43,056 bases of DNA from Rhodoferax sp. (GTDB taxonomy: Bacteria > Pseudomonadota > Gammaproteobacteria > Burkholderiales > Burkholderiaceae_C): the NCBI GenBank assembly GCA_013791765.1, contig VMTC01000057.1:1-43056 (forward strand). Direction: 5' to 3'. Below the pieces are notes generated by a model, which searched no databases, had not been told where the DNA came from, and saw nothing but the letters and a program-made list of their open reading frames with translations. Shown piece by piece: positions 7,021 through 39,184 of this stretch. How positions within the stretch are numbered: position 1 is the first letter of the stretch; each line of letters begins with the position of its first letter. Made by a program: the position numbers and the translations under genes.

Positions 7021-7043
7021 GACGGTCTTGCGTCCAAACTGAT

Positions 7044-7280
7044 CTACAACACGCGCCCGCTGGCCGCGTCGATCAGGATCACCCGGACTTCCCCCTGCGC
7101 GCTGAGCACTTTCACACGCCACACCGCGCGCCCATCCATCTCAGCTTTTTCGACCGAGAGCACACGGGCACCACTGGCTTGCTGCGCCACTGCCGCCGCC
7201 TGGTCGCGGCTGACGTCGGCCCAGGCCGGGGTACCCAGGGCCAGCAGCAAGACACAAAGCAGGGTGGAAATCGATTTCAT
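7044..7280 (-). CDS. Small periplasmic PepSY-domain protein
   Basis: 78 residues from ATG 7280. A signal peptide (KSISTLLCVLLLALGTPAWA, cleavage near residue 21) precedes one PepSY domain (AAAVAQQASGARVLSVEKAEMDGRAVWRVKVLS...VILIDAASGRVL). PepSY domains in small exported proteins are thought to restrain peptidases or act as periplasmic sensor modules. Such genes often sit beside two-component systems. It lies 23 bp upstream of the response regulator gene on the same strand and probably shares its transcript. Confidence 0.85.
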   Translation of the reverse strand: MKSISTLLCVLLLALGTPAWADVSRDQAAAVAQQASGARVLSVEKAEMDGRAVWRVKVLSAQGEVRVILIDAASGRVL

Positions 7281-19638: not shown

Positions 19639-19684
19639 AAATAGCATCATTGGCTTTACCAACAGGGGCTACAGCCCATTTTCA
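19639..19684 (+). repeat. Dispersed intergenic palindromic repeat, copy 3
   Basis: Begins AATAGCATCATTGGCTTTAC and ends GGGGCTACAGCCCATTTTC, matching the frame of the 2654 copy. It fills the gap between two convergent genes and just overlaps the stop of the FIST gene. Confidence 0.5.
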
Positions 19685-20944: not shown

Positions 20945-20973
20945 AAGCCCCTTTTGTCGCAGACGATGCCGCT

Positions 20974-21687: not shown

Positions 21688-21795
21688 GTTGACTCCAAAG
21701 GGTTGGCTGTAAGGGTTCACAGCTTAACCCAATGGCGACCCCATGGCGATGCGCCGCATCAAGGCCTTTTTGAAGCCATCGCCCCTACACTCGGC

Positions 21796-24132
21796 TCAGA
21801 ACTTCACATTCACGCCGACATAAATCGAGCGGCCCATGCCGGGCACGGCGGTACCCCACTGCGGATAATTGGGCACTGCGGGGTTGGTCATGGTCGTGCC
21901 CTGGCCGGTGTAAGCCCCGCCCGTGGGAAGGCTGTAGAACTTGTCAAACAGGTTCTCTACGCCAAAGTCCAGGCGCACGGTTTTCCAGCCAAAACTGCCA
22001 CGCAGGTTGACCAGGCCGTAACCGGGCGTCTTGATCTCGTTGCGCACGCTGGAAACATCGTTTTTGGCTGACACCATCACCAGCTCGACGCTGTTGGCCC
22101 AGCCACCGGTGGTTTGTGTCACGGCCAGTTTGGCGTTGAGCGGCATGATGTTGTACAGGTTGTCCCCGGTGTCCTCATTGGTGCCACGGGTGTAGTTCAG
22201 CAGCGCTTTGACGCCGAAATCGCCCACGGCCGTCTTGGCCAGCGGCATGTGGCCAGACAGATTCACGCCGTAGAGCCGCGCCGACTGGTTCATGTATTTC
22301 AGCACGCTGAACTTGTCCGTGGCCAGGGTGGTGGCGGGGGCGTTGGTGGCGGCATTCCATTGCACAGCGTCGATGTAGTCGTCCACCTGCGTGTAAAACG
22401 GCGTGGCCTTGAAGCCCCAGCTGCTGTCTGCGGCGTGCCAGTCAAAGGTGGCGCTCAGTGTGTTGGCCGCCTCAGGCTTGAGATTGAGGTTGCCGATGTA
22501 ACCGTTGCCATCGCCGACAAAGTTGTTCATCAGCGCGGCCATCTGCCAGGTCGACCATGTGAAACGCTCGTACACGTTGGGCGAGCGCACCTTGTGGGCA
22601 AAGCCGAACTCGATGTCGTAGTTGGCATTGGCGGTGTACTTGGCCAGGGCGCTCAGGTCGACGTTGGTGTCGGTGCTGCTGTGGCTTTGGTCATTGAAGG
22701 CGTCGGCATCGCGGGCCTGATTACCCCCGGCGGTGGACGCCGTGTTGTAGCCAGCGGCTTTGCCCGCATCCATCTTGACCTGCTCGACGCGTGCGCCAAT
22801 CAACGTCATCCACTGCGCGCTTTTGCGGGTTTCCAGCTCAGCAAACAGCGCGGTGCGGTCGCGCTCGCCGTCTTTGATGTTCCAGAAGGTGCCCGGCGCC
22901 ATGCCGCCGCCAGACGCTGGCCACCAGTCATTGACTCGGTATTGCTGCAACTCAGCGCCCACGCGCAACAGGTCTTGCGGGTTCAGGGCCACGTCGGCTT
23001 TGACGCTGACACCGGTGGTTTTGCCCTCGGTGTACATCGGCATGCCGGCGGCGCAAGTGGCGGTACCTGACGGGCTGCAGGGCGCGCCGTTGAGCGCCAT
23101 AGCGCCACCCGAGCCCACCACCACACCAGCCACAGTGGAGCCGCCGTACCAGTAGCGCTTGTCCGGGCCAAAATCCATGAAATGGTCCACGTTCTCCTGG
23201 TAGGCGCGGGCTTCCAGCGAACCCCAGTCAAACTGACCCAGGTAGCGCAGGTTCAGACTGTCCTGCTTGTTGTAGAGCATGTCCATGCGCTGGTTCGGGT
23301 AGAGCTGAAACGGCATGTCCTGAATGCCCAGCTTGGCTTCAAACAGATGGTTGTCGTTCATGAAGGCCAGCCCCAAGCTGTGGTTGCGCGTGTCGTAGGC
23401 GGTGGAGCCAACCTCGTCACGCGCCAGCGTATGGCCAATACGTCCGGAGAAATCGTAGCTTTTGAAGTCGCCACCGGCTGTGTAGTTATCAGCCTTGGCG
23501 GTGGAGCCGCTATAACTGACGTTGAACGCTTGTGTGGCGTAGCTGGCCGACAGGTTCAGGCCACGGGCGTCGTTGTTGCTGCGGTAAAAGGTGCCCAGCT
23601 CGCCTTTGACGATCGGTTTGTCACCGGGGGCGACAAATTCAGGCGGGCGCGACTCGGCATTGATACTGCCGCCAATGCTGTCACCGCCCGCGCTCACCGG
23701 GGCGATGCCGGCATAAACCTTCAACGTGCCCACGTTGGTCGGGTCGATGTAAGACAGCGCCGGGTTCATGTGGTTGGGGCACGAGGCGATCAAATCCATG
23801 CCGTCCACCTTGATGCGCAGGCGGTCATCGGCCAGTCCGTTGATGGCGGGCAGGCTCGACACGCCGCCTGCACCATACAAGCTCAGGCCGGGAATGTCGC
23901 TCAGCAGGCTGGCGGTGTCGCTGGTAGCGGACCGTTTGGCCGCCAGGCTGGCCGGGTCAATGACGGCGGCACCCAAGGGCTGGCTGACTCGGCTTTGGGC
24001 GCCAATAACCGTGATCGGCGTCAGTGTGAGCACGGTGTCGTCGGCCGCCAGCGCCGGGCCGCTCAGGAGAATCATTGGGGGTAGCGCCAGGGCCATGGCG
24101 CAGGCGAGTGGGCAAAGTTTGAATTGAGACAT
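21796..24132 (-). CDS. OprC/NosA-like TonB-dependent copper receptor
   Basis: 778 residues from ATG 24132. A signal peptide (about 1-30, ending GPALAADD) is followed by a plug domain (about 40-160) and a long beta-barrel closing with VGVNVKF, with the aromatic last residue typical of outer-membrane proteins. The plug carries SCPNHMNPALSYIDP (C118, M122), the CxxxM copper site of Pseudomonas OprC/NosA. This marks it as a copper rather than a siderophore receptor. The PCu(A)C chaperone and DUF2946 genes immediately upstream on the same strand support that. An earlier in-frame start at 24189 would add residues before the signal peptide and is rejected. Confidence 0.9.
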   Translation of the reverse strand: MSQFKLCPLACAMALALPPMILLSGPALAADDTVLTLTPITVIGAQSRVSQPLGAAVIDPASLAAKRSATSDTASLLSDIPGLSLYGAGGVSSLPAINGLADDRLRIKVDGMDLIASCPNHMNPALSYIDPTNVGTLKVYAGIAPVSAGGDSIGGSINAESRPPEFVAPGDKPIVKGELGTFYRSNNDARGLNLSASYATQAFNVSYSGSTAKADNYTAGGDFKSYDFSGRIGHTLARDEVGSTAYDTRNHSLGLAFMNDNHLFEAKLGIQDMPFQLYPNQRMDMLYNKQDSLNLRYLGQFDWGSLEARAYQENVDHFMDFGPDKRYWYGGSTVAGVVVGSGGAMALNGAPCSPSGTATCAAGMPMYTEGKTTGVSVKADVALNPQDLLRVGAELQQYRVNDWWPASGGGMAPGTFWNIKDGERDRTALFAELETRKSAQWMTLIGARVEQVKMDAGKAAGYNTASTAGGNQARDADAFNDQSHSSTDTNVDLSALAKYTANANYDIEFGFAHKVRSPNVYERFTWSTWQMAALMNNFVGDGNGYIGNLNLKPEAANTLSATFDWHAADSSWGFKATPFYTQVDDYIDAVQWNAATNAPATTLATDKFSVLKYMNQSARLYGVNLSGHMPLAKTAVGDFGVKALLNYTRGTNEDTGDNLYNIMPLNAKLAVTQTTGGWANSVELVMVSAKNDVSSVRNEIKTPGYGLVNLRGSFGWKTVRLDFGVENLFDKFYSLPTGGAYTGQGTTMTNPAVPNYPQWGTAVPGMGRSIYVGVNVKF

Positions 24133-24349
24133 GATGAAGGTGTTTGTTGGTAAGCAAAAGGTTTGAGGCCGCGCACGAGTCGAGCACAAACACGCCTCCA
24201 GCCCTTACTGGGACTGCGTGAGGCGCTATGAATTAAAAAATTTAAGGGTAGACGCTCAAGCCACGCGGGCGACACAGCCTGTCAGCGTCGGGGTTGCGAC
24301 GACGCGTGACATCAAATGCGCAAACAGGCTCAAGCCGATTCGCAGGCGC

Positions 24350-25744: not shown

Positions 25745-26971
25745 TCAGGATGTGGATTTACCGCGTTTGCCGATAGCGGCTGCCCAAGCACGGTGCAGTT
25801 GTGCCAATTTTTCGGCGGATTCGGGGGTTCGGCCGGCGTTGTTCAAGGCTTGCCTGATGAACACAAACAACAACAACGCAAATCCGGTGGCCAGGGTGGT
25901 CAACATGGCGATCAGCGCTTTTTTGGGTTTGGTTTTCAGCTCCGGGGGAACGGCCACGTCCAACACCTGAATGACGGCGCCTTCACGGCTTTCGTCTATG
26001 CGGGCCATTTCGTACTGTTTGGCAAACAATTCAAACAGCGTTTCGTAGTATTTGAAGTCGCGGAACTTCGACACATAGTCACCGTCTTTGCTGTTGTTAT
26101 TGGGTTCTGCCGCTTCGGCGCGGCTGAGTTGCTGCCGCATGGCGGAAAGCTCCGTCTGGGCTTGCTTAAAGTCAGGCGCAGATTCGGTCAGGTAGCCGCG
26201 CATGCTGGCAAGCTTGATTTCTTGTGCGGCAATGGTGGCTTTCAGGCGGGCCAGGCCTTCAATGGCGGCGGCGGGGTCGGTTTTAAGCACATTGCTGTTC
26301 ACGCCGCTGGCTTTCAAGGCCAGTTCGGCTTTAACCAGTTTGTCTTTTGCGTCATTGAGCTGCTTTTCAAAGAACACACGGCGTTGTTGGGCTTCGGTGA
26401 TGGCCAGGCGGCCCAACAGAGTGCGGAGCTCTTCGACATAGGCGTTGGCCAACTGCGCAGCAAAGACCTTGTCTGTGTCACTGGAGTCAATGGTGATCAG
26501 TCCGTCTTTGCCGCTGGATATCTTGACATTGCCGCCAAGCGTTTTCCTGGCTGAGTCGCGAAACTCGACCTCGTACCGGTCCATGAGCTTGAAACGGTCA
26601 ATCAGCGCGTCTTGCACGGTGCGGCTCTGCAAAAAGGCCACAAACTGGTCGTTCGGGTTTTTGATGCCGGTGGCCGCACCCGCCAAACCGCCCAATGCGC
26701 CCAGCGATGCCAGCATGGAGGCGGCCGCGCTTTGCTGTTGCTGCGGTGGCAGGAACTTGGTGGTGGCGGTAAAGGTGGGGGCAATGCTGAAGCTAATGCC
26801 AAGCGCCAGCAGCCCTGCAGCCAGCGGCCCCAAGACCAGCAGGCGCAGGTTGTCTACCACTACTTGCAACAGGTCAAGCAGGCTGATTTCGTCGTCTTCT
26901 TCAAGGGGCATGGGTTGGCGCGCCTCGCTTGCAATGACTTCGGGTGAGGACATGTTTGCGTTTTGGCTCAT
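25745..26971 (-). CDS. Wzz-type polysaccharide chain-length / export co-polymerase
   Basis: 408 residues with Wzz topology: TM1 at about 43-64 (LLVLGPLAAGLLALGISFSI), a long periplasmic helical region with coiled-coil character (about 160-330), and TM2 at about 353-373 (LIAMLTTLATGFALLLFVFI) preceded by the Pro-rich VPPELKTKPKKAL segment. There is no C-terminal tyrosine-kinase domain. It would set polymer length together with the Wza-like protein encoded 8 bp upstream. No polymerase or glycosyltransferase genes remain downstream. Confidence 0.88.
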   Translation of the reverse strand: MSQNANMSSPEVIASEARQPMPLEEDDEISLLDLLQVVVDNLRLLVLGPLAAGLLALGISFSIAPTFTATTKFLPPQQQQSAAASMLASLGALGGLAGAATGIKNPNDQFVAFLQSRTVQDALIDRFKLMDRYEVEFRDSARKTLGGNVKISSGKDGLITIDSSDTDKVFAAQLANAYVEELRTLLGRLAITEAQQRRVFFEKQLNDAKDKLVKAELALKASGVNSNVLKTDPAAAIEGLARLKATIAAQEIKLASMRGYLTESAPDFKQAQTELSAMRQQLSRAEAAEPNNNSKDGDYVSKFRDFKYYETLFELFAKQYEMARIDESREGAVIQVLDVAVPPELKTKPKKALIAMLTTLATGFALLLFVFIRQALNNAGRTPESAEKLAQLHRAWAAAIGKRGKSTS

Positions 26972-26979
26972 GGGGCGGC

Positions 26980-29325
26980 TCAGTTTCCAATGGACTTGAT
27001 GGCGGCTACGCCCAGGCCCAGGTTGGCCAGAATTTGGGTCCAGTCCTTGGCGCCGCGAATGAAGGCGTTGTAGCGGGATTCGCGGTCCATCATGGCGGGT
27101 ACCACCAGGGTGTCGCCGGGCATCATGGGCACGGATTCAAAACTGGCGTTGAATAAGCCGCTGCCAAACCAGCCAGCGCGGTCGTTGCGGGAAATGATGC
27201 TGCCGTCTGCGCGCAGCACAAAAGCCTGGGCTGGCTCGGCGTCTTCGGTCAGGCCTGCCGATTTGATGACATCACCCACGGTCTTGCCAGTTTTGTAAAT
27301 GAATACGTTTTCGTTGTTCACCGAGCCAAAGGCAGACACAAAGCCAGGGGCGCTGGGCACCAGGATGTAATCGCCGTCTTCAAGCGGAAGGTCGGGCAGG
27401 GCGGCCAGGCTTTGGCCGCGTGGGTCAAGCTCAAGAGACATGCGGCCGCTGCTTTTGAAAGACTTGAGCCGCTCAATCTGACTCTTGAGCTGGGCTTGTT
27501 GCACTTGCAAAATGGCGGCGGTTTGGTCGGCGTTGCCAGCATTGCTGCGGTTGGCCAAGAAGGTGCCTTGCTGGGATTGTGTTTGTGACTCTAGCCGGCG
27601 AATGAGTTTGTCAAGGTTTTCCTGCTGGCGTGCCTTGACAGATTCGCGGTTAAGTTCGGTGCCAAATACATAGGCCTGGGGCGTCAGGCCGCCTACGCGT
27701 TTGATCAGCATGGGCAGGGTTTCGCCGGGCAGGGTCTGGTAAATACCGGGGGTGGAGACTTCGCCCTCAACCCGTACCAGGCGGCTTTGGCGCTCTTGGG
27801 GTACGCGCAGGTCGCTTTGGCTCAGAATAGTGACCACGTCACCAGCTTGCAGGCTCAGGTTGTAGGCGGGGTCTTTTTGCAGCACTGCTTTGCCCAGGTT
27901 AAAGGGAATGAGTTCGGTGGTGAGCGTGCTGCGGTTCAGGCGTTCGATGACAGCGTAGTCCCAGTTGATCTGGTCAACCATGCCACGAATCTGGCCCGCC
28001 ACGTTGCCGCCAGCGGCTTTGGCCGCGTCGGCGTTTTGCACCAACAGGTTTTTGCGCTTGTAATAGTCGCCCGTGATGAGGGCATCGCGCTCGGGGATCA
28101 GGTCAAGGATTTTCATGCCTTCAAACCAGCGATAGCGCAGCGGCGCGGCTACCGTACCTTGCAGGGTGACCGCATTGGCAAAGGCGGGGCTGATGCCTAG
28201 CAGCGTGATGACGTCGCCGTCTTGCAGCGTTTGCTGCAGGCCTTGGGCATCCAACACCAGCTCTTGCACCTGGCGCGGTGGGTTGCTGGTGCGGCTAATG
28301 CGTTCAAGCAGGGCTTTTTGGCTGGTGGCCAGGGCAGGCACGCCGCCGCCCAGTGCCAGAATGTCTTGCAGGCTGGTGGCGCTGGATTTCAGCTCAAAAA
28401 TGGCGGCCTGGTCAAAGGCGCCGGTGACGGCCACGCGCGGGCCAACCGGGGGAATGACGATGACATCGCCTGACATCAGGGGCAAGTCGCGAGACTTGTC
28501 GCCGCGTGCAATAAAGTCATACAAATCAAGCGTGGTGATGGTTTTGCCGCCGCGTTTGAGTTCAATGGCGCGCATGGAGCCGTTGGCGCTGGGGCCGCCA
28601 CTGGCAAACAAGGCGTTCACGAGGGTGCTCAGGCTGGAGAGTTGAAAGGTGCCGGGCTGCTGGGCCTGGCCCACCACATACACCTGAATGCCGCGCAACC
28701 GACCCAGGCTGGCGCTGGCTTTGAAGTTGGCAAAGACTTTGCCGAGCTGGGCGCTGAGCGTTTTTTCAAGGTCGCGCACGGCAACACCGGCCAGAGTGAC
28801 GACACCCACCTTGGGCAGGTTGACTTGGCCATTGCGGTCCAGCACCAGATTGCTGCTGAAATCCATGGGGCCAGAGACTTGCAATTGCACCTGATCCCCG
28901 GGGCCAAGCAGATAGTCGTCAGGGGCGGGCAAGGCGTTGTTGACGCCATAGGCCTGAGGTGCGTCAAACAAATCACGGCCATACATGGGCAACAAGCGCC
29001 CGGTGGATTCCTGCACAAAGCGCTGAAACTGGCTTGGGCCTGCAACGCGGGCGGGTGCGGCTTTTTGCACGGCATCGGCGCTTGGGGCATCTTGGGCGGA
29101 CTTGGCGGCGCTTTGCGCTTCGGACTGCAATTGTGTGGCCATTTGTGCACTGCCAGCTGCACTGGCGCTGGGCGCCAATGCAGTTGCCGCAGGCGCTGCG
29201 GTCAATGCCGAGGTAGCGCCTGCTCCGCCAGCGACGGCCGTCACCGCTGTTTGCGCTTGCAGGCTGGTGTTGAAAGAGATGACAAGCAGCGCCAAGGCGC
29301 TGGCCTTAAAAATGGATTTCAGCAT
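26980..29325 (-). CDS. Wza-like polysaccharide export outer-membrane protein (SLBB)
   Basis: 781 residues from ATG 29325, which gives a good signal peptide (MLKSIFKASALALLVISF...LQAQ). Upstream starts at 29391 or 29412 would add a second hydrophobic stretch. After a low-complexity Ala/Gln region the Poly_export domain begins (DDYLLGPGDQVQLQVSGPMD), followed by several SLBB repeats (for example GIQVYVVGQAQQPGTFQLSS, RVAVTGAFDQAAIFELKSS, RLVRVEGEVSTPGIYQTLPG). It forms a multimeric export channel spanning periplasm and outer membrane. There is no lipobox Cys, unlike E. coli Wza. The gene is paired with wzz and lies next to a broken rfbC. Confidence 0.9.
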   Translation of the reverse strand: MLKSIFKASALALLVISFNTSLQAQTAVTAVAGGAGATSALTAAPAATALAPSASAAGSAQMATQLQSEAQSAAKSAQDAPSADAVQKAAPARVAGPSQFQRFVQESTGRLLPMYGRDLFDAPQAYGVNNALPAPDDYLLGPGDQVQLQVSGPMDFSSNLVLDRNGQVNLPKVGVVTLAGVAVRDLEKTLSAQLGKVFANFKASASLGRLRGIQVYVVGQAQQPGTFQLSSLSTLVNALFASGGPSANGSMRAIELKRGGKTITTLDLYDFIARGDKSRDLPLMSGDVIVIPPVGPRVAVTGAFDQAAIFELKSSATSLQDILALGGGVPALATSQKALLERISRTSNPPRQVQELVLDAQGLQQTLQDGDVITLLGISPAFANAVTLQGTVAAPLRYRWFEGMKILDLIPERDALITGDYYKRKNLLVQNADAAKAAGGNVAGQIRGMVDQINWDYAVIERLNRSTLTTELIPFNLGKAVLQKDPAYNLSLQAGDVVTILSQSDLRVPQERQSRLVRVEGEVSTPGIYQTLPGETLPMLIKRVGGLTPQAYVFGTELNRESVKARQQENLDKLIRRLESQTQSQQGTFLANRSNAGNADQTAAILQVQQAQLKSQIERLKSFKSSGRMSLELDPRGQSLAALPDLPLEDGDYILVPSAPGFVSAFGSVNNENVFIYKTGKTVGDVIKSAGLTEDAEPAQAFVLRADGSIISRNDRAGWFGSGLFNASFESVPMMPGDTLVVPAMMDRESRYNAFIRGAKDWTQILANLGLGVAAIKSIGN

Positions 29326-29429
29326 GGATAGGGGTAACGCAAGTGGCAGCAAAGTGAAATAAAAGAGCGGGAGTGACAGAATCTGGGACATCGCAGGCGT
29401 ATTCTTGTGCAATTGTATAGACCAGCGCC

Positions 29430-29755
29430 TCAGTCAAAATCCGCCGCATCGGCAAGGCGCTGAGCGTTCCGGTCTTTGCTTGCCAGCAGCGGCGCACCGT
29501 CTACCGACCACTGCCCCCCCCACTGCGGGGTCGCTCCACAACAGACTGCGCTCGAATTCCGGTTGGTAATTCAGACTGCGCAACACACCTTTGGCGGACT
29601 TTCTGTGGTTGGGCTGTACCAACTGCACATCCAACCTGGACACTTCAGCAAATTCGCCGGCGTTGAAGCTCTTCAAGAGAAAAACCGCGGTCATCGCCCA
29701 GAACTTTGGGCCCGAGGATGAGCACATCGGGCAGGCGGGTTTGGGAATGGCAACC
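29430..29755 (-). pseudogene. rfbC: Decayed dTDP-4-dehydrorhamnose 3,5-epimerase
   Basis: RfbC pieces survive in order on the minus strand but in different frames: LPDVLILGPKVLGDDRGF (about 29690-29735), then FNAGEFAEVSRLDVQLVQ and PNHRKSAKGVLRSLNYQ, then EFERSLLWSDPAVGG. After another frame change come QWSVDGAPLLASKDRNAQRL and ADAADFD, with stop at 29430-29432. At least two frameshifts are needed, and about 80 central residues, including much of the active site, are absent between LNYQ and EFERSLLW. It is nonfunctional. Its presence beside wza/wzz-like genes suggests that a dTDP-rhamnose-containing polysaccharide locus once lay here. Confidence 0.8.
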
Positions 29756-29770
29756 CGACGAAATGACTGT

Positions 29771-29811
29771 GCAAACATTCGATACATTTGGCCCGAATTT
29801 TTGAAACAGTC
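29771..29811 (+). promoter_or_regulatory. 41-bp element, copy A, upstream of the transporter operon
   Basis: Begins GCAAACATTCGATACATTTG and ends CCCGAATTTTTGAAACAGTC. It is identical at 39 of 41 positions to 35712-35752. Internal ACATT repeats (29775, 29784; 9 bp apart) and an ATTCG/CGAAT inverted pair are present. It lies 204 bp before the transporter start. Being unique to the two operon heads, it is a candidate shared regulator site. Confidence 0.6.
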
Positions 29812-30015
29812 GGGTGGCAGTATTCCCCTGGGAACGGCGCCATTTTTTGTTCGGTCCGTGGCCAGACGAGTCTCGTTGTTCAGTTTGCCATCTGGGTACA
29901 GCACGACGCTGCTGGACAGTGAGACAACTGCATCAACTTCACGACTGAGGACCAAAGCGTCGAAAAATATGCTCGTTTTCACTTGGTTTTCCTCACCCAA
30001 ATAGAAAGAATTTGC

Positions 30016-30624
30016 ATGTCAGCATCCAATGGCGTCCTCGCCAACCCTGCACCTCTTGGTCTTCTTGGCTTTGGCATGACAACCGTCCTGTTGAATATTC
30101 ACAATGCGGGCTTTTTCCCGATGACCAGCATGGTCTTGGCGATGGGCATTTTCTACGGCGGGATGGCGCAGTTGATCGCGGGCATAGAGGAGTGGAAGGT
30201 AGGCAACACCTTCGGTGCCACGGCTTTTACCTCCTATGGCTGTTTCTGGCTGACCTTAGTGGCGATAACGGCCCTTCCAAAACTCGGCTTTGAGGCCGAC
30301 AGCGGCGCCTCGATGACCGCTTATTTGGTGGTTTGGGGCATCTTCACCCTATTCATGTTCATCGGAACATTGAAGTTGAACCGCACCCTGCAGGTCATTT
30401 TCGGCTCAGCTACCGTTTTGTTTTTTATGCTGGCCTTTGGCAAGGCCACGGGCAACGAAGAAGTGATTCGTCTGGCCGGCTATGAGGGCATCTTCTGCGG
30501 TGCATCGGCCATGTACGGCGGACTGGCGCAGATCCTGAACGAACTCTATGGTCGCTGCGTCATGCCACTGGGCGTGCGCAAAGCCGCGTCATCTTTGAAT
30601 GCCAGTGGTGCTCTTGCGATCTGA
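30016..30624 (+). CDS. Acetate uptake transporter (GPR1/FUN34/SatP family)
   Basis: 202 residues from ATG 30016, with SD GAAAG at about -8. Six hydrophobic helices. The signature [21 protein letters not shown] (in parts, 10-30) is followed by [26 protein letters not shown] (in parts), as in E. coli SatP, an acetate/succinate-proton symporter. It may import acetate or other short-chain acids. It is the first gene of the presumed operon with thiolase, 3-hydroxyacyl-CoA dehydrogenase and a two-component system, which points to uptake of the acids they metabolise. Confidence 0.92.
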
Positions 30625-30712
30625 GCCTGCGTCAGGCAAGGGGTTTACGATCATCAATTGCCGAGCTCAAGCAACCTGATTGCCGAATTGTTTTTATCCT
30701 AGGAGTTTTTCG

Positions 30713-31894
30713 ATGATTAAAGAAGTCGTAGTTTTAAGCGCAGCCCGTTCCGCCATTGGCGCATTTGGCGGATCCCTGGCCAACATGGAGCCGCCTGAAC
30801 TGGCCGGCATCGTGATGAAAGAAGCCATTGCCCGCTCTGGGGTCGACCCCCGGCAAATTGGCAATGCGGTGGTTGGCCACTGCATTCCGACCGATTCGCG
30901 CTACGCCTACGTTTCCCGCGTCGCCTCCATCCAGGCCGGTTTGCCGATGGATTCGATCGCCATGCAAGTGAGCCGTTTGTGCTCCTCCGGGCTGCAAGGC
31001 ATCGTGACCGCAGCACAAAACATCATGCTGGGTGATTTTGATTACGGCATCGGTGGCGGCGTCGAGGTCATGTCGCGCGGCAGCTACATGATGCCCGCCT
31101 TGCGCTCCGGTGCCCGCATGGGCGACACCAAGGCGATCGACATGATGGTCGCCGTGCTGACCGATCCCTTTGGCGTGGGCCACATGGGCATTACTGCTGA
31201 AAACCTCGCCGCCAAGTGGAACATCAGCCGCGAAGACCAGGACGCCTTTGCCTGCGAATCTCAGCGCCGTGCCGCCGTGGCGATTGCAGAAGGTCGCTTC
31301 AAATCCCAGATTGTTCCCATCGTCCAGCAAACGCGCAAAGGTGAAGTCGTGTTTGACACCGACGAGCACGGCAAGGCCAACACCACCCTGGAGTCGCTGG
31401 CCAAAATGAAGCCTGCCTTCAAAAAGGACGGCACCGTCACCGCAGGCAACGCCTCGGGCATCAACGATGGTGCAGCCTTCTTCGTGCTGGCCGCTGCCGA
31501 CGTGGCCGCCAAAGCGGGGCAAAAGCCCATTGCCCGAATCGTTTCTTATGCTGTTTGCGGCGTACCCAATGAACTCATGGGTGAAGGACCCATCCCAGCG
31601 ACCCAGCTGGCGCTCAAAAAGGCCGGGTTGACACTCGATCAGATGGATGTCATCGAAGCCAATGAAGCTTTTGCCGCGCAGGCGATTGCCGTCAACAAGG
31701 GGCTCGGGCTCGACCCGGCCAAGACCAATCCGAACGGCGGCGCCATCGCGCTGGGTCACCCCGTGGGCTGCTCCGGCGCCTTCATTGCAACCAAGGCGGT
31801 CTACGAACTGCAACGCACCGGCGGCAAGTATGCATTGGCCACCATGTGCATCGGCGGTGGCCAGGGTATTGCCGTGATTTTCGAACGCATCTGA
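30713..31894 (+). CDS. Acetyl-CoA C-acetyltransferase (thiolase)
   Basis: 393 residues from ATG 30713, with SD AGGAG. The catalytic residues are C90 (VSRLCSSGLQG), H349 (ALGHPVGCSGA) and C379 (MCIGGGQGIAV), in the numbering of the Zoogloea biosynthetic thiolase (C89, H348, C378). NEAFAAQA is also present. It interconverts acetoacetyl-CoA plus CoA with two acetyl-CoA. Sequence does not decide between breakdown and PHB synthesis. The neighbours (3-hydroxyacyl-CoA dehydrogenase, acyl-CoA dehydrogenase, CoA-transferase) favour short-chain acid degradation. Confidence 0.94.
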   Translation: MIKEVVVLSAARSAIGAFGGSLANMEPPELAGIVMKEAIARSGVDPRQIGNAVVGHCIPTDSRYAYVSRVASIQAGLPMDSIAMQVSRLCSSGLQGIVTAAQNIMLGDFDYGIGGGVEVMSRGSYMMPALRSGARMGDTKAIDMMVAVLTDPFGVGHMGITAENLAAKWNISREDQDAFACESQRRAAVAIAEGRFKSQIVPIVQQTRKGEVVFDTDEHGKANTTLESLAKMKPAFKKDGTVTAGNASGINDGAAFFVLAAADVAAKAGQKPIARIVSYAVCGVPNELMGEGPIPATQLALKKAGLTLDQMDVIEANEAFAAQAIAVNKGLGLDPAKTNPNGGAIALGHPVGCSGAFIATKAVYELQRTGGKYALATMCIGGGQGIAVIFERI

Positions 31895-31972
31895 TTGCGC
31901 CCGTTACGCAGACGCGCCAGCATGAAGCCGACCGTCGCGTGTTGAGCTTTTTTCTCACTGGAGTTTTTCAAG

Positions 31973-32821
31973 ATGGAAATAAATACTGTTGGAATCATCG
32001 GCGCTGGCACCATGGGTAACGGCATTGCGCAGGCCTGTGCGGTGTCTGGCATCAGGGTCATCATGGTCGATGTCTCAGAGGCCGCCGTCGCCAAGGGGGT
32101 GGCCACCGTGGCGGGCAGTCTGGATCGCCTTCTCAAGAAGGAAAAGATCACGGCGGCCGAGCGTGACGCAGCACTGGCGCGCATCATGGGCAGCACAAGC
32201 TACGACGAACTGAACTCAGCCCAACTGGTGATCGAAGCGGCTACTGAGAATTACGATCTCAAACTCAGAATTCTCAAGCAGGTGGACGCCCTGCTGGCGC
32301 CCGAGGTGATTGTCGCCACCAACACCTCGTCCATTTCGATCACCAAGCTGGCCGCGGCGACCAGCCGCGCCGATCGCTTCATTGGCATGCATTTCTTCAA
32401 CCCGGTGCCGATGATGGCGCTGGTGGAAATCATTCGCGGTCTGCGGACCAGCGATGCGACGCACGACGCCGTGCATGCCATGGCAATATCCCTGGGCAAG
32501 ACGCCAATCACCGTGAAAAATGCGCCGGGCTTTGTCGTCAACCGCATTCTGGTGCCGATGATCAACGAAGCTTTTTTTGTGCTGGCCGAAGGCCTTGCCA
32601 CGCCCGAGGACATCGACGCGGGCATGAAGCTCGGCTGCAACCAGCCAATCGGCCCGCTGGCACTGGCCGACATGGTCGGACTCGATGTCTGCCTGGCCGT
32701 GATGGAGGTCTACCTGAGCGAATTCGGCGACAGCAAATACCGCGCCTGCCCGTTGCTCAAAGAAATGGTGGCCGCCGGTCGTCTGGGTCGAAAGACCGGC
32801 CAGGGCGTTTATCGGTATTGA
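31973..32821 (+). CDS. 3-hydroxybutyryl-CoA dehydrogenase
   Basis: 282 residues, the usual length of the short monofunctional enzyme (Hbd/PaaH). The N-terminal Rossmann fold has GIIGAGTMGNGIAQA (8-22) for NAD(P). The substrate-domain motifs are VIEAATENYDLKLRI, ATNTSSISITKLA, GMHFFNPVPMMALVEII, including the catalytic His, and APGFVVNRILVPMINEAF. A C-terminal helical domain ends GRKTGQGVYRY. It oxidises 3-hydroxybutyryl-CoA to acetoacetyl-CoA, the substrate of the thiolase encoded 78 bp upstream. Confidence 0.94.
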   Translation: MEINTVGIIGAGTMGNGIAQACAVSGIRVIMVDVSEAAVAKGVATVAGSLDRLLKKEKITAAERDAALARIMGSTSYDELNSAQLVIEAATENYDLKLRILKQVDALLAPEVIVATNTSSISITKLAAATSRADRFIGMHFFNPVPMMALVEIIRGLRTSDATHDAVHAMAISLGKTPITVKNAPGFVVNRILVPMINEAFFVLAEGLATPEDIDAGMKLGCNQPIGPLALADMVGLDVCLAVMEVYLSEFGDSKYRACPLLKEMVAAGRLGRKTGQGVYRY

Positions 32822-32887
32822 TTCGTTGCCGCGTGTCGATGCTCGATCAACGCCCTAGAAACGAAACGCCACCTGCGCTTGCACCCC

Positions 32888-34918
32888 ATGCCATCTCAAC
32901 TTTCCATCAAGACATCATCTGTCGACCGCCAAAAGGAGTTTCTTCAGGCCGGGTTGGATCGGATCGACCAGGGCTTGACGGTTATTGATGGCAACCTGCA
33001 ACTGGTGGCGTGGAACCAGGCCTTTTTACGGCTGTTGGATTTTCCAGAAGGCATGGCGTATGTCGGCGCGACCTTTGAGTCGTTCATACGCTACAACGCC
33101 GAACGCGGCGAATACGGGCCGGGTGATGTGCAGGAACTGATTGCCGAGCGTGTGCGCTTGGCAAGTCGATTTGTCTCGCACTACACCGAACGCGCCCGGC
33201 CGGACGGCCGGATTCTGGCGGTGCGCGGCGACCCCTTGCCCGACAACGGCTTTGTCACGGTTTACACCGACATGACCGCCAGCCGACGTCTTGAGCAGCA
33301 GATCCAGCAGGACAACGCCGAGTTGGAGGATCGAGTCGCCCAGCGCACCAAGCAACTGACGGCAGCCCAGCAACGCCTGACGGAGGCGGATGCGGCCGCG
33401 CAGCGCATCACCACGGCCTTGCGCTGCAGTGAAGAAAATTTGCGCTTGATCACAGATACGGTGCCCGCGCTGATTGGCTACTTTGACCAACAGGAAATCT
33501 ACAGCTACACCAACAAGGGCTATTCCGACTGGTTTGGGTTCACCAAGGAGGAAATGCTGGGCCGCTCGATTCATGACGTGGTCGGAGACGAGGTTTACGC
33601 CAGTGTCTCAACCTATGTGCGCCAGGCACTGCAAGGGCAGCAGGTCAGCTATGAGTACGCCATGCGTCGCCCGGGTGGACAGGTGTTTTATGCGCGCAGC
33701 GAATTGGTCCCTGAACTGGACGCCGAGGGGCGCGTGATCGGCTGTTTTGTTCTCTCAGTCAACATCACCGACCTCAAGAATGCGCAGTCGGCTCTGGTTC
33801 ATGCACAAAAGATGGAGGCGGTGGGACAGTTGACAGGCGGGCTGGCGCACGACTTCAACAATTTGCTGACGGTCGTGATCGGCAATCTGGTTACCCTGCA
33901 TGAGCGCTACCCGAACGATCCGGATATTTGCGAATTTGTGGTCCCGGCGCTGAAGGCGTCGCGCCGCGGCGCGGCGTTAATCAAGCGCCTGCTGGCGTTT
34001 GCCTCCAAGCAGCCACTTGCGCCGAGGTCCGTGAATATTGCCGACCTGGTGGCCGACACCATGATCCTGCTCAAGCGCACACTGCCGGCGCACATCAGCG
34101 TGACCAGCATTCCCATGGAGGAGCCCTTGTTCGCGATGACCGATGCGCAGCAACTTGAAAATGCACTGCTCAACCTCGCGCTCAATTCGCGTGACGCCAT
34201 GCCCGATGGCGGGCAGTTGGTGATTCAGGCGCAGCGCATGCAGCTGGACCTGGCGCGGGTGGCTGATTTCGACGTTGCACCGGGCAGCTACGTGGCTTTG
34301 AGTGTTTCCGACACCGGCGCCGGCATGGATGCAGCCACTCAGGCGCGCGCCTCCGATCCGTTCTTCACCACCAAGCGCTTTGGCTTGGGAAGTGGTTTGG
34401 GCTTGTCCATGGTCTACGGATTTGCCAAACAATCTGGTGGCGGCATTCGCATTCAAAGCGCATTAGGCGAAGGCTGCACCGTCACGCTGATGCTGCCTTA
34501 TGTCTGTGACAAGCTCGAGCTTGACGCGCTGACGGGCACACCGCATGGATCGGGTCAACACGGCGCGCAGCACCCCCTGGTCTTGCTGGTGGAGGACGAC
34601 CCCGACGTGCGCCGTGTCATCCGGCTGCAGCTGGTCGAGCTGGGCTACCCGGTGATCGAAGCGGACCATGCGGCGGACGCCCTGGATCTGTTGGCGACCG
34701 TGCCGTCCGTGGGCATCCTGATCTCCGACATGGTGATGCCCGGCTGCATGGATGGACGCACACTATGCCGTGAGGCGAGCCTGAGCGCACCGGATGTGAA
34801 GACTTTGTTGATCAGCGGCTACGCCATGTCGAGCGAGAATGCGATCGGTCCGCCGCTGCTGAAGAAGCCATTCACCGCCGTCGAACTGCAACGGGCCCTT
34901 GATGGTTTGATGTCATGA
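32888..34918 (+). CDS. Soluble PAS hybrid histidine kinase
   Basis: 676 residues from ATG 32888. An N-terminal PAS-like domain (about 17-130, LDRIDQGLTVIDGNLQLVAWN) is followed by a coiled coil (133-180), a second PAS (about 181-296), HisKA with H321 (GGLAHDFNNLLTVVIGNL), HATPase with N433 (LNLALNSRDAMPDGG), DTGAGMD and GLGLSMVYG, and a receiver domain (564-676) with D614 (ISDMVMPG) and K at LLKKPF. There are no membrane helices, so it reads an intracellular cue. It overlaps the OmpR-family regulator gene by 4 bp and lies 66 bp after the dehydrogenase gene, so it probably senses a metabolite of this pathway. Confidence 0.9.
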   Translation: MPSQLSIKTSSVDRQKEFLQAGLDRIDQGLTVIDGNLQLVAWNQAFLRLLDFPEGMAYVGATFESFIRYNAERGEYGPGDVQELIAERVRLASRFVSHYTERARPDGRILAVRGDPLPDNGFVTVYTDMTASRRLEQQIQQDNAELEDRVAQRTKQLTAAQQRLTEADAAAQRITTALRCSEENLRLITDTVPALIGYFDQQEIYSYTNKGYSDWFGFTKEEMLGRSIHDVVGDEVYASVSTYVRQALQGQQVSYEYAMRRPGGQVFYARSELVPELDAEGRVIGCFVLSVNITDLKNAQSALVHAQKMEAVGQLTGGLAHDFNNLLTVVIGNLVTLHERYPNDPDICEFVVPALKASRRGAALIKRLLAFASKQPLAPRSVNIADLVADTMILLKRTLPAHISVTSIPMEEPLFAMTDAQQLENALLNLALNSRDAMPDGGQLVIQAQRMQLDLARVADFDVAPGSYVALSVSDTGAGMDAATQARASDPFFTTKRFGLGSGLGLSMVYGFAKQSGGGIRIQSALGEGCTVTLMLPYVCDKLELDALTGTPHGSGQHGAQHPLVLLVEDDPDVRRVIRLQLVELGYPVIEADHAADALDLLATVPSVGILISDMVMPGCMDGRTLCREASLSAPDVKTLLISGYAMSSENAIGPPLLKKPFTAVELQRALDGLMS

Positions 34919-35649
34919 ACGCCACCGTGTCCCCTGCGCCCATCGGGCAGCGCTGCATCTATATCCTGGACGACGACCCCGACCTGTGCCGACTCGTGAG
35001 TGGCACCTTGCGGGAGTTTGGTTTCGAGACCTATGAATGCGCCAGCGCGGCCGCCCTGCGCAGCCTCCTTTTGTGGCGCGTCCCTGATCTGTGCATCGTG
35101 GACCTGGGCCTGCCCGATGCGGATGGCCTCGATGTGGTGCGCGAATTGCAAGCGCGCTACGCCTGCGGCGTGATGGTGTTGACCGGGCGGGGCTATCTGA
35201 GCGACCGGGTCATGGGCTTGGAACTGGGGGCTGATGACTATATCGTCAAGCCGTTTGAGCCGCGCGAATTGGTGGCGCGCGTGCGCAGCATCTTGCGTCG
35301 TCAGGACAAGGCCAGCAGTGCGCAAGCACCCGAACATTCACAGGTTGCGGAGTTTTCAGGCTGGCGATTCCTGGTCGACTCCAACACGCTGACTGCGCCC
35401 AGTGGCCAGCAGTGGACGCTGAGCTCCGGCGAGTCGCACATGCTGCTGCTGTTCCTGAAGCGTCCAAACCGGATCCTTGACCGCGAGCAGTTGTGTGGCG
35501 ACCGCGATCTCTCGGCCCTGGATCGGAGCGTCGATGTTCGTGTGTCGCGACTGCGGCGCAAGCTTGAATCGGACCCCGAACACCCCAAAACCATCCGCAC
35601 CGTCTACGGCGCAGGCTACCTGCTGGCCGTTGAGGTCAAGTGGTTGTAG
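34915..35649 (+). CDS. OmpR/PhoB-family response regulator
   Basis: 244 residues; ATG overlaps the kinase stop (ATGA). The receiver domain (about 13-130) has D19, D20, D21, phosphoacceptor D63 (CIVDLGLPDADG), T90 and K112 (YIVKPFEPREL). The winged HTH (about 145-240) includes LSSGESHMLLLFLKRPNRIL, LDRSVDVRVSRLRRKL and IRTVYGAGYLL. It should be phosphorylated by the hybrid kinase, possibly via intramolecular receiver transfer or directly. The acyl-CoA dehydrogenase promoter region begins right after it. The paired 41-bp elements are candidate targets. Confidence 0.93.
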   Translation: MNATVSPAPIGQRCIYILDDDPDLCRLVSGTLREFGFETYECASAAALRSLLLWRVPDLCIVDLGLPDADGLDVVRELQARYACGVMVLTGRGYLSDRVMGLELGADDYIVKPFEPRELVARVRSILRRQDKASSAQAPEHSQVAEFSGWRFLVDSNTLTAPSGQQWTLSSGESHMLLLFLKRPNRILDREQLCGDRDLSALDRSVDVRVSRLRRKLESDPEHPKTIRTVYGAGYLLAVEVKWL

Positions 35650-35988
35650 GCGGCCCAACGCCACCCGACTGCTGAACTTGTCCACGCGCTGCAACTCGGC
35701 GCAAACGCACTGCAAACATTCGATACATTTGCCCCGAATTTTTGCAACAGTCCGATGCCATGATTCCGGCGTGAAGGCTTGAGCACCGGCACCTTGCGTC
35801 AAGAGCAAATTCGGAACCGATGGTCTACAGATCAACGATGCCAATGGCGCGAATTGACCAGGCCGCGAAATCAAGGAGCCGGCGCAAACCATCGTCTGGG
35901 TCACACCCGACGGCGGTGCTGGGCCGGATGACGCCGGGGGGCAAGCTCCTGCAACCCAAAATTTGAAACCACCTCCAGAAAGCACTTT
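35650..35988 (+). other. 339-bp gap heading the second acyl-CoA operon
   Basis: Holds the second 41-bp element (35712-35752) and presumably the promoter of the acyl-CoA dehydrogenase gene. A 48-codon frame from ATG at about 35821 to TGA at about 35967 has no family resemblance I can recognise, and I do not call it. A weak purine-rich site (CCAGAAAG) precedes the ATG at 35989. Confidence 0.5.
35712..35752 (+). promoter_or_regulatory. 41-bp element, copy B, upstream of the acyl-CoA dehydrogenase
   Basis: Begins GCAAACATTCGATACATTTG and ends CCCGAATTTTTGCAACAGTC. It differs from copy A (29771-29811) at two positions only. It lies 236 bp before the acyl-CoA dehydrogenase start, in the same orientation relative to the gene as copy A. 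Flanking DNA shows no extended similarity, so it is not part of a long duplication. Confidence 0.6.
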
Positions 35989-37770
35989 ATGAACTATCAA
36001 GCCCCCCTCCAAGACATGTTGTTTGCGATGCAGGAACTCGCGGGCTTGTCCAGCGTCACTGCCCTGCCTGGTTTTGAGGATTACGACCTCGATACCACGC
36101 AGGCCGTCATGCAAGAGTCGGCCAAGTTTTGCGCGGGCGTGGTTGCGCCTTTGAACGCAGGTGGCGACAAAGAGCCGAGTTTCTTCAAAGACGGTGATGT
36201 CACGACTGCGCCTGGCTTCAAGGAAGCCTACACGCAGTTTACGCAGGGCGGTTGGCAAGGCGTGATCCACCCGACCGAGTTTGGCGGTCAGGGCTTTCCC
36301 AAACTGATCGCCACGCCCTGCATCGAGATGCTGCACGCGGCCAGCCTGTCGTTTGCCCTGTGTCCGATGCTCACCGACGGTGCCATTGAGGCACTGCTGG
36401 TGGCCGGCTGCGATGAACTCAAACGCAAGTTTGTCGGCAAACTCATCAGCGGCCAGTGGACCGGCACCATGAATTTGACCGAACCGCAGGCCGGCTCTGA
36501 CTTGGCAGCGGTGCGTTCGACTGCCCAGCCACAGGCTGACGGCACTTACAAAGTGTTCGGCACCAAGATTTTTATCACCTATGGTGAACACGATATGGCT
36601 GAGAACATCATCCATCTGGTGCTGGCCCGTGTGCCAGGGGCGCCCGAGGGTGTCAAGGGCATATCGCTGTTTCTGGTTCCCAAACTGATGGTCGGCGACG
36701 ATGGCGCACTGGGCGCGCGCAACGACGTTGCGTGTGTGTCAATTGAGCACAAGCTCGGCATCAAGGCCAGCCCGACTGCAGTGCTTCAATTTGGCGATCA
36801 AGGTGGCGCGGTGGGCTATCTGATAGGCCAGGAGAACCGTGGCCTTGAGTACATGTTCATCATGATGAATGCGGCCCGCTTCGCCGTGGGCATGCAGGGC
36901 ATCGCGGTGGCCGACCGTGCCTATCAAAAAGCGGTTCGCTTCGCCCATGACCGCGCCCAAAGCCGCGACCTCGCTGGCTCTGCAGGCCCGGTGTCCATCA
37001 TCAATCACCCCGATGTCAAGCGCATGCTGCTGAGCATGCGGGCCCACGTCGAAGGCACGCGCGCCCTGGCTTACGTGGCGGCGGCGGCCAGCGATGCCGC
37101 TCACCACGCCAGCGACGAGGCGACGCGCAAAAGCAACCAGGCCGTCTACGAATACCTGGTGCCGGTGGTCAAAGGCTTTTCGACCGAAATGTCGGTCGAG
37201 ATGACAAGCCTGGGCGTGCAGGTGCACGGCGGCATGGGCTACATCGAAGAAACCGGTGCCGCCCAGCATTACCGCGACGCCCGAATCCTGACCATCTACG
37301 AAGGCACCACCGCCATTCAGGCCAATGACATCGTGGGCCGCAAGACCTTGCGCGACAAGGGTGCGGTGGCCAAGGCCTTGTGCGCCCAGATTGCACTTAC
37401 CGAGCAAGACCTGGCTGCGCGCGACAACGCCGACTGCACAGCGATGTGCAACGCGCTTGAGCAGGGCCGCGTGGCAATGGAACAGGCGGTTGACTTCATC
37501 CTTGCCAATGGTAAGAGCCAGCCCAAAGCGGTGTATGCCGGTGCCGTCAGCTACCTCAAACTGGTTGGCATCGTGCTGTGCGGCTGGCAGATGGGCCGGG
37601 CCATGCTGGTGGCACAGAACAAGCTGGAGAGTGATCCTGCATTCTTCAGCGCCAAGCTGATCACAGCACGCTTTTATGCCGAGTCGGTGCTGACCCAGGC
37701 AAGCGGCCTGGCGCAAAACGTCTGCCTGGGCGGCGACACGATCAACCGCATGCCGATTGAACTGTTTTGA
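35989..37770 (+). CDS. Acyl-CoA dehydrogenase, DmdC-like
   Basis: 593 residues, the long form of the family (ordinary members have about 380-400), with the extra C-terminal domain of DmdC-type enzymes. FAD/substrate motifs are MNLTEPQAGSDLAAVRSTA (161-179) and KIFITYGEHD (193-202). The catalytic base is E438 in RILTIYEGTTAIQANDIVGRK. DmdC acts on 3-methylmercaptopropionyl-CoA, but many relatives take short or branched acyl-CoAs. With the CoA-transferase, 3-hydroxyacyl-CoA dehydrogenase and thiolase, a butyryl-CoA-like substrate is plausible. No enoyl-CoA hydratase or electron-transfer flavoprotein gene is in the window. Confidence 0.92.
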   Translation: MNYQAPLQDMLFAMQELAGLSSVTALPGFEDYDLDTTQAVMQESAKFCAGVVAPLNAGGDKEPSFFKDGDVTTAPGFKEAYTQFTQGGWQGVIHPTEFGGQGFPKLIATPCIEMLHAASLSFALCPMLTDGAIEALLVAGCDELKRKFVGKLISGQWTGTMNLTEPQAGSDLAAVRSTAQPQADGTYKVFGTKIFITYGEHDMAENIIHLVLARVPGAPEGVKGISLFLVPKLMVGDDGALGARNDVACVSIEHKLGIKASPTAVLQFGDQGGAVGYLIGQENRGLEYMFIMMNAARFAVGMQGIAVADRAYQKAVRFAHDRAQSRDLAGSAGPVSIINHPDVKRMLLSMRAHVEGTRALAYVAAAASDAAHHASDEATRKSNQAVYEYLVPVVKGFSTEMSVEMTSLGVQVHGGMGYIEETGAAQHYRDARILTIYEGTTAIQANDIVGRKTLRDKGAVAKALCAQIALTEQDLAARDNADCTAMCNALEQGRVAMEQAVDFILANGKSQPKAVYAGAVSYLKLVGIVLCGWQMGRAMLVAQNKLESDPAFFSAKLITARFYAESVLTQASGLAQNVCLGGDTINRMPIELF

Positions 37771-37837
37771 AGTCCAGGCCCAGGTCCATGGCGGCGCATT
37801 CAACCTTCAACGCATCTTCAAATTGAGAGACATCAGC

Positions 37838-39184
37838 ATGACAAAACGTGACCAGGACCAGTATCGACAAAAACTCGGCTCAGCCGACCAGGCTGCCGCA
37901 CGGGTCAAGTCGGGTGACATTGTGTTCATGGGCGAATTCGCCCAGAACGTGGAAGCCGTGGACGCTGCCCTGGCGCTGCGCAAGAGCGATCTGCAAGACG
38001 TGATCCTGATCACCACGACGCGCGCCAAGGCATTGAAGTGCGTCGAGGCCGATCCGAAGCGGGAATCGTTCATCTGGAACGACTGGCATTTTTCGGGCCT
38101 GGGTCGCAAGTTCGGCGAGCAGGGCCTGGCCAGCTACATCCCGTTCAGCTACCACCAGGGGCCGCAGAACGTCATGCTGTACGAGGAGCCCGACGTCGCC
38201 GTCGTGCAGGTAACGCCCATGGATGCGCAGGGCTTCTTCAACTTTTCGACCAGTTGCTCGATGACCCCGGCCTACTGCCGCAAGGCCAAGATGGTGGTCG
38301 TCGAGGTCAACACGAAGGCGCCCCGTTGCCTGGGCGGTCTTGATGAAGGAATCCACATCTCGCAGGTGGACATGGTGGTCGAAGGTCCCAACAGCCAGCT
38401 GCTGCAACTGCCCGAAGGTCTGGCAAGTGACGCCGACCGGATGATCGCCGGCCACGTAATGGAACTGCTCGAAGATGGCTCGACGATCCAACTCGGCATC
38501 GGCGCACTTCCCAATATCGTCGGCTCGATGATCGCGCACAGCGGCTTGAAGGACCTTGGCGTGCACACTGAGATGCTGGCCGACTCCTATGTCGATATGT
38601 ACGAGGCCGGGCGCATCACCGGCATGCGCAAATCCATCGACCGCGGCAAGATGGTCTACACCTTCGCCATGGGATCGCAGAAGCTCTATGACTTCCTGGA
38701 CAACAACCCGGTGGCATCGATCTTCCCGGCGTCCTACACCAATGACCCCGGCGTCATCGGCCAGAATCCTAAAGTGGTCGCGATCAACAACGCCATCGAG
38801 GTCGACCTTTTCACACAGGTCGCCAGCGAGGCCGCCGGGACGCGCCAGATTTCCGGCACCGGGGGCCAGCTCGACTTTATCCTGGGGGCGTACAAGTCCG
38901 AGGGTGGCAAGGGCCTGATCTGCATCAACTCGACATTCAAGAAGAAGGACGGCACGATCGGCTCACGCATCGTGCCGACGCTCTCGGCCGGAACGATCGT
39001 CACCTGCCCGCGTTCGATCGTGCACTATGTCGTGACCGAATTCGGCTACGCGCAGATGAAGGCCAAATCAACCTGGCAGCGGGCCGAGGCCTTGATCAAT
39101 ATTTCGCATCCCGATTTCCGGGAACAATTGATCAAGGAAGCCGAGTCCATGGGCATCTGGCGTCGGTCCAACAAAATACTGTGA
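37838..39184 (+). CDS. Acetyl-CoA hydrolase / 4-hydroxybutyrate-type CoA-transferase
   Basis: 448 residues from ATG 37838 (SD GAGAG), 67 bp after the acyl-CoA dehydrogenase. Family I CoA-transferase with GDIVFMGEFAQNVEAV near the N-terminus, the CoA loop QLGIGALPNIVGSMI (218-232), and the catalytic Glu predicted at E245 in GVHTEMLADSYVDMYEAG. GTGGQLDFILGAYKSEGGKG and FGYAQMKAKS follow. It resembles AbfT/Cat-type butyrate or 4-hydroxybutyrate:acetyl-CoA transferases. It would activate an imported acid with CoA from acetyl-CoA, producing acetate. That fits the acetate-type transporter of this module. Confidence 0.92.
   Translation: MTKRDQDQYRQKLGSADQAAARVKSGDIVFMGEFAQNVEAVDAALALRKSDLQDVILITTTRAKALKCVEADPKRESFIWNDWHFSGLGRKFGEQGLASYIPFSYHQGPQNVMLYEEPDVAVVQVTPMDAQGFFNFSTSCSMTPAYCRKAKMVVVEVNTKAPRCLGGLDEGIHISQVDMVVEGPNSQLLQLPEGLASDADRMIAGHVMELLEDGSTIQLGIGALPNIVGSMIAHSGLKDLGVHTEMLADSYVDMYEAGRITGMRKSIDRGKMVYTFAMGSQKLYDFLDNNPVASIFPASYTNDPGVIGQNPKVVAINNAIEVDLFTQVASEAAGTRQISGTGGQLDFILGAYKSEGGKGLICINSTFKKKDGTIGSRIVPTLSAGTIVTCPRSIVHYVVTEFGYAQMKAKSTWQRAEALINISHPDFREQLIKEAESMGIWRRSNKIL

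Follow-up and report, generated by a model that had tools for sequence, protein, structure and literature searches.

The window analysed here is the whole 43 056-nucleotide stretch of a Rhodoferax sp. contig, and positions refer to it unless stated otherwise. It contains a module of seven forward-strand genes in two consecutive presumed operons, the first running from an acetate transporter to a response regulator and the second comprising an acyl-CoA dehydrogenase and a CoA-transferase. The assignments, made with Pfam and NCBIfam, agree with the gene identities of the original prediction:

30016..30624, + strand: SatP/YaaH-type acetate uptake transporter (PF01184, 6.5e-38; NF038013 AceTr_1 above cut-off)
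30680..31894, + strand: BktB-like beta-ketothiolase (Pfam/NCBIfam; start codon uncertain, may be 30713)
31973..32821, + strand: 3-hydroxybutyryl-CoA dehydrogenase, Hbd-like (NF004474 above cut-off)
32888..34918, + strand: hybrid histidine kinase with PAS_7, PAS_4, HisKA, HATPase and receiver domains (Pfam; first possible start 32879)
34915..35649, + strand: OmpR/PhoB-type response regulator, presumed operator-binding protein (PF00072, 5.2e-22; PF00486, Trans_reg_C, 4.8e-16)
35989..37770, + strand: acyl-CoA dehydrogenase, long form, with acetyl-CoA dehydrogenase-type C-terminus (PF12806, PF00441)
37757..39184, + strand: acetyl-CoA hydrolase/transferase family protein, butyryl-CoA:acetate CoA-transferase-like (PF13336; TIGR03948, 8.6e-161, below cut-off)

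No enoyl-CoA hydratase is found among these seven genes, so the pathway is incomplete locally. In Pfam the kinase shows PAS, HisKA, HATPase and receiver domains and no others, thus no SLC5 symporter domain, and its match to the AtoS model falls far below the cut-off. Hydropathy averaged over 19 residues peaks at 1.64 (residue 602), within the receiver domain, and the protein is probably soluble, with no membrane span evident from hydropathy. The predicted structure of the PAS region (mean pLDDT 88.2, pTM 0.49) consists of two PAS domains joined by a long helix and resembles many PAS sensors, including those of heme, flavin, redox and other ligands. The response regulator gives full-length matches to solved members of the OmpR/PhoB family and lacks a sigma-54 AAA domain in Pfam. 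Its residue Asp63, the presumed phospho-acceptor of this family, is invariant in 21 aligned sequences.

Elsewhere in the window, the reverse strand carries a second two-component pair (4982–7122; a kinase with HAMP and HATPase domains and a further regulator of the OmpR type), a FIST-domain sensor protein close to a TonB-dependent receptor (19682–24189) and polysaccharide-export genes like those for EpsE/EpsF and the XrtA/PEP-CTERM export protein (25745–29412; matches below curated cut-offs).

The repeated element and its anatomy

Both operons are preceded by a copy of a 41 bp element. A recount bears out the repeat as originally described, with 29771–29811 and 35712–35752 sharing 39 of 41 bases, oriented alike, 5.9 kb apart and 204 and 236 bases, respectively, before the ATGs of the first genes (30016 and 35989). 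The accompanying claim of unrelated flanks stands insofar as identity drops on both sides, but residual similarity extends up to about 15 bases downstream and takes in a −10-like hexamer. The recognizable parts of the two putative operators are

29770..29790, + strand: copy 1, core TGCAAACATTCGATACATTTG, preceding the acetate-transporter operon (footprint in 5 genomes)
29802..29806, + strand: copy 1, third element TGAAA, family consensus TGCAA (column counts, 24 sites)
29818..29823, + strand: copy 1, −10-like hexamer CAGTAT at fixed distance (site alignment: position 48 A in 22/24, position 52 T in 23/24)
35711..35731, + strand: copy 2, core, preceding the acyl-CoA dehydrogenase operon (footprint in 4 genomes)
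35743..35747, + strand: copy 2, third element TGCAA (column counts, 24 sites)
35759..35764, + strand: copy 2, −10-like hexamer CATGAT (24-site alignment)

An open reading frame on the reverse strand (29434–30000) overlaps copy 1; a short rmlC-like stretch (residues 105–150, E 1.1e-5, below the model cut-off) suggests that it is perhaps a decayed dTDP-4-dehydrorhamnose 3,5-epimerase gene.

A 34-base core, allowing up to three mismatches, occurs exactly twice in the Rhodoferax genome (4 172 370 bases in 136 contigs), and the same core written backwards has no match there. A looser pattern that combines the core with the third element recovers the same two copies and none further. A generic repeat with many copies elsewhere is thereby ruled out, both copies lying at these operons. 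In a 2 Mb first-order Markov sequence, scanned on one strand with a 41-column matrix, a single position reached a score of at least 14 (maximum 14.2); the 24 sites from which the matrix was built score 27–60, a range favoured by construction. This difference excludes a chance origin of the element.

The site alignment and matrix comprise 24 of the 29 core-like matches from the window and its relatives' loci; four weaker matches between the regulator and DUF485-ActP (L032, L033, L034 and L036) and one inside a gene (L040) were left out. The conserved parts read tGCAAACATTCG(T/A)(C/T)ACATTTG, followed by about 11 mostly variable bases, the third element TGCAA at +31 to +35 (some three helical turns after the first element), a T at +39 and, at +47 to +52, the −10-like hexamer, in which 22 of the 24 sites have A as the second base and 23 have T as the sixth. 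The outer flanks carry at most 0.5 bit per column. OmpR/PhoB-type regulators are expected to bind direct repeats about one helical turn apart. In the 24 sites the elements begin at 0, +9/10 and +31/32, and the self-similarity of the site profile peaks at lags of 9–10, 20–22 and 31–32, as expected for a protein bound along one face of the helix, with inverted symmetry nearly equal to direct (12.3 versus 12.8). The inverted ATTCG/CGAAT pair in which the original prediction saw a binding feature did not survive the alignment: CGAAT is not conserved outside the clade of the window, columns 23–27 carry less than 0.5 bit each in the 24 sites, and the pair is rejected as a functional feature.

Conservation within the promoters is similarly concentrated. 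In footprints of promoter 1 (five genomes) and promoter 2 (four genomes), the number of invariant columns per 20-column window rises to 19 inside the element and is no higher than six away from it and its borders; little besides the element and the −10-like hexamer is conserved in the promoters of relatives with the layout of the window. This confinement of the invariant columns indicates selection on the element itself. Two near-identical copies only 5.9 kb apart could in principle be a functionless remnant of local duplication, or else a small mobile repeat. We give this reading almost no credence, since the genome holds just the two copies, other genera usually have one, and same-genus relatives keep both positions while the flanks have diverged, so that it is already contradicted by conservation.

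The promoter context bears on the direction of control. A site at a fixed distance just upstream of a −10 hexamer, with no −35 hexamer, is the usual mark of an activator-dependent promoter. The 24 sites contain no conserved −35 hexamer, the third element occupying its place, and a consensus scan found no promoter with both hexamers in 29300–30015 or upstream of the second operon. Activator dependence therefore fits better than repression, in which the same regulator, bound over the −35 region of the same operator, would block RNA polymerase until a signal released it. We regard repression as unlikely, though a site covering the −35 region would suit a repressor too, and ArcA, a member of the same regulator family with similar multi-element sites, acts as a repressor at many of them (PMC3798270).

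Occurrence of the element with the kinase and regulator

The regulator, called at E ≤ 1e-60, is present in 22 of 200 genomes of the family. Wider regions were compared for 20 relatives together with the window (21 loci, with genes called by a codon-usage caller); G051 and a second locus in G175 were judged from match positions only. When the window consensus was searched in the 20 relatives' loci, 19 of them had their best match immediately upstream of the kinase, at −6 to 115 bases from its start and on the opposite strand. The exception is G121, in which the two best matches face an ETF-QO gene and a third site stands before the kinase. In that locus (L037, 5552–5678) the two operators that face ETF-QO are separated by 87 bp and lie between this gene and DUF485-ActP, and a double-dose promoter is possible.

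Of the 22 family genomes with the regulator, 18 match a 20 bp core pattern with at most one mismatch at the kinase–regulator locus, compared with a single degenerate match in each of 4 of the 178 regulator-negative genomes (G018, G029, G080 and G144; Fisher p = 2.6e-18, uncorrected for kinship); as the pattern was widened after the relatives' sites had been seen, 18/22 holds partly by construction, which applies neither to 4/178 nor to the placement of the window consensus. The four regulator-positive genomes with no pattern match (G012, G069, G079 and G175) carry diverged copies at the same place, and a further degenerate match lies elsewhere in each of G058 and G016. In the genus, the kinase (E ≤ 1e-120) occurs in 12 of 89 genomes and the site is at the locus in all 12, in ten by the core pattern and in two (G205 and G241) as diverged sites upstream of the kinase. 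Nine of the 77 kinase-negative genus genomes give a pattern match: G274 has an exact match, with a 93%-identical regulator near a contig start, and the other eight have one-mismatch matches only, at about the level of the backwards control (9/89 genomes).

These counts also bear on a reading in which some other transcription factor for fatty-acid genes binds the element and the kinase–regulator pair is merely one of its targets. Such a factor would account for sites beside metabolic genes as well as beside the kinase and regulator genes. The core, however, follows the regulator gene across the 200 family genomes, and the kinase and regulator are the only gene clusters in 21/21 loci, the next most frequent cluster occurring in 12. 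In addition, 11 of the named loci described below have other OmpR-type regulators (42–45% identical) and no such kinase, and none of them has a match above 9.6. Taken together, this makes another factor quite improbable.

The distant comparison covered the best 80 named loci, in 67 of which the kinase family is visible; its members turn up at least in Comamonadaceae, Azonexaceae/Zoogloeaceae, Paracoccaceae/Roseobacteraceae and Oceanospirillaceae. Of these 67 loci, 30 have a match of at least 14 to the original matrix within 700 bases upstream of the kinase, always on the opposite strand, and 37 have none. Most misses (again among the best 80) fall in alphaproteobacterial and marine gammaproteobacterial loci and in Thauera, Azoarcus and Zoogloea, a group of which almost every locus is a miss. 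The link is thus not universal, or the motif changes there. The remaining sequence of these loci contains eight matches of at least 14 in 1.76 million positions, and no fewer than two of the eight lie next to ActP genes. The 13 loci of the 80 with no visible kinase give no matches; two end at a contig edge and the others are the 11 with a different regulator. A relaxed matrix, descriptive only because it was partly built from scored loci, matches 61 of 97 pieces against 6 of 381 control pieces and, read in the same descriptive way, picks up related variants in several alphaproteobacterial loci and not in most Thauera/Zoogloea loci. Some named loci belong to a family genome or to a very near one, the regulators of L100/L035 and L122/L042 being identical and those of L119/L046 and L107/L036 near-identical; such loci therefore add no independent evidence. 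In the Thauera/Azoarcus group, L088, L091 and L099 show operator-like matches several kilobases from the kinase (positions 401, 2193 and 121), L099 with a weak match beside the kinase as well.

Co-occurrence of the element with the kinase–regulator pair is tight in the family of the window and weaker or altered elsewhere. The co-occurrence that the original prediction proposed as a check is seen in the family, and the 37 distant loci with no visible link set its limit; conservation upstream of orthologous operons, whose absence would have refuted the prediction, is seen both in the 19 of 20 relatives' loci and in same-genus relatives, which keep both operon heads.

Gene layouts in relatives

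Most relatives have one site, facing a divergent operon that starts with an acyl-CoA ligase or acetyl-CoA synthetase. Over the 20 loci, the best-scoring sites face an AMP-dependent acyl-CoA ligase in 14, Acs in three, an acyl-CoA dehydrogenase in one, ETF-QO in one (G121) and a contig end in one. Liv-type ABC transporter genes, MaoC, ETF, ETF-QO and ActP/DUF485 are also present in these neighbourhoods, and in some Variovorax-like genomes an additional match of lower score falls between the regulator and DUF485-ActP, on the other strand from ActP. An Oxalobacteraceae MAG (L132, 3589) has a weakly SatP-like gene (26%) and a CoA-transferase-like gene (37%) divergent from the kinase, with the operator between, that is, the same functions as in the window in the divergent layout.

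The layout of the window, originally thought to be without known parallel, is shared by a small clade. G202 and G265 have the transporter–thiolase–dehydrogenase–kinase–regulator order, then ETF-QO, acyl-CoA dehydrogenase and CoA-transferase, and a site heads each operon; G262 has both sites and the common layout up to the end of its contig. G259 and G274 are consistent with the same layout across split contigs: in G259 the thiolase operon, where SatP gave no match, and the acyl-CoA dehydrogenase and CoA-transferase genes lie on different contigs, each preceded by a site, and G274 has the second operon with its site. Comparison of L175, L177, L209 and L210 with window positions 35753–35988 places ETF-QO between operator 2 and the acyl-CoA dehydrogenase in G202 and G265; neither G259 nor G274 showed it in the second operon, and the window has no room for it, since only 340 bases separate regulator and acyl-CoA dehydrogenase. 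No site stands directly before the kinase in G202, G259, G265 or G262, where the kinase follows the dehydrogenase gene as it does in the window. In the regulator tree the window groups with these four genomes (100/100), nested among loci of divergent layout, from which we infer that the layout of the window probably derives from the divergent one.

Proposed mechanism and comparison with known systems

Sequence comparison supports the original reading of the 41 bp element as an operator: it is very probably where the OmpR-family regulator encoded between its copies docks. The full model, in which the 34915–35649 regulator acts with a soluble PAS kinase to activate both promoters, including that of its own genes, seems to us well favoured by the comparative evidence. 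The scheme that we infer for signal, phosphotransfer, binding, activation rather than repression and co-transcription is as follows. The soluble PAS–PAS hybrid kinase (32888–34918) would sense an intracellular cue, probably the energy or redox state or a short-chain acid metabolite, and would control phosphorylation of the regulator. The phosphorylated regulator would bind several elements of about 10 bp across the upstream and −35 regions of the two promoters and, positioned about one turn upstream of a weak −10 hexamer, would recruit RNA polymerase. Uptake (SatP) and activation (CoA-transferase) of acetate and other short-chain acids would thereby be switched on, as would beta-oxidation (acyl-CoA dehydrogenase, hydroxyacyl-CoA dehydrogenase and thiolase) and the kinase and regulator genes themselves, a positive autoregulation.

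This appears to be an undescribed, autoregulated two-component system with a small regulon of its own, which would activate carboxylic-acid uptake and oxidation. A search of open-licence papers by title and start of abstract found no description of the kinase–regulator pair or of the motif, and a subscription paper could exist; the motif text GCAAACATTCG is present in 12 open-licence papers, all titled on other subjects. The analysis provides an apparently uncharacterized kinase–regulator family with a specific DNA site and a metabolic role, and offers a testable prediction of how environmental bacteria living on fermentation acids turn on acetate and fatty-acid use. A broader view, to which we give even chances, is that beta-, alpha- and gammaproteobacteria have in this pair an undescribed switch for carboxylic acids, in which a soluble PAS hybrid kinase sensing redox state or acyl-CoA would fill, with its OmpR-type regulator, the role that CrbS/CrbR has in other bacteria, and the operator stays while the controlled genes are swapped. 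If true, the exchanged sets would be acyl-CoA ligase with the Liv transporter, Acs with ActP, and SatP with the CoA-transferase, and retention of an operator through exchange of its target genes would make a clear case for regulon evolution.

AtoS/AtoC is a two-component system controlling short-chain fatty-acid use, in which AtoC is a sigma-54 activator. The likeness lies in two-component control of short-chain acid use; the regulator of the window differs in having a Trans_reg_C winged helix and no sigma-54 domain. ArcA, which belongs to the same OmpR/PhoB family, is a global anaerobic regulator with a membrane kinase. E. coli ArcA sites consist of two adjacent elements of about 10 bp with 11 bp spacing, some with a distal one about two turns (approximately 22 bp) away, and acs is among the targets (PMC3798270). 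Such multi-element sites with a distal element are a published parallel to the putative operator, although ArcA is global, whereas the system of the window has a self-encoded regulon with two sites in its own genome.

AccS/AccR of Azoarcus sp. CIB (PMC6456745) is a PAS kinase and regulator involved in carbon-source choice that senses the redox state of quinones; AccS, of 903 residues, spans the membrane twice, has a periplasmic region and contains three PAS motifs, and its authors describe simple His–Asp transfer with no phosphorelay. Both systems pair a beta-proteobacterial PAS kinase with a regulator tied to carbon-source choice, but the kinase of the window combines two PAS domains with a receiver domain and shows no evident membrane span, and identity with AccSR is ruled out on this architecture.

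CrbS/CrbR (MxtR/ErdR) of Vibrio and Pseudomonas (PMC5715377) is an acetate-utilization two-component system with a small regulon including acs and actP; CrbS combines an SLC5 symporter with a STAC domain, and CrbR is a LuxR-family protein that needs an inverted repeat, the ACTU motif. Identity with CrbSR is ruled out by the absence of an SLC5 domain and of a LuxR-type regulator in the system described here. The kinase of the window differs in having PAS domains and no symporter, the regulator in being of the OmpR type (Trans_reg_C) rather than the LuxR type, and the motif is a different one, whereas the two systems are alike in the two-component control of a small regulon through a motif just upstream of the promoter.
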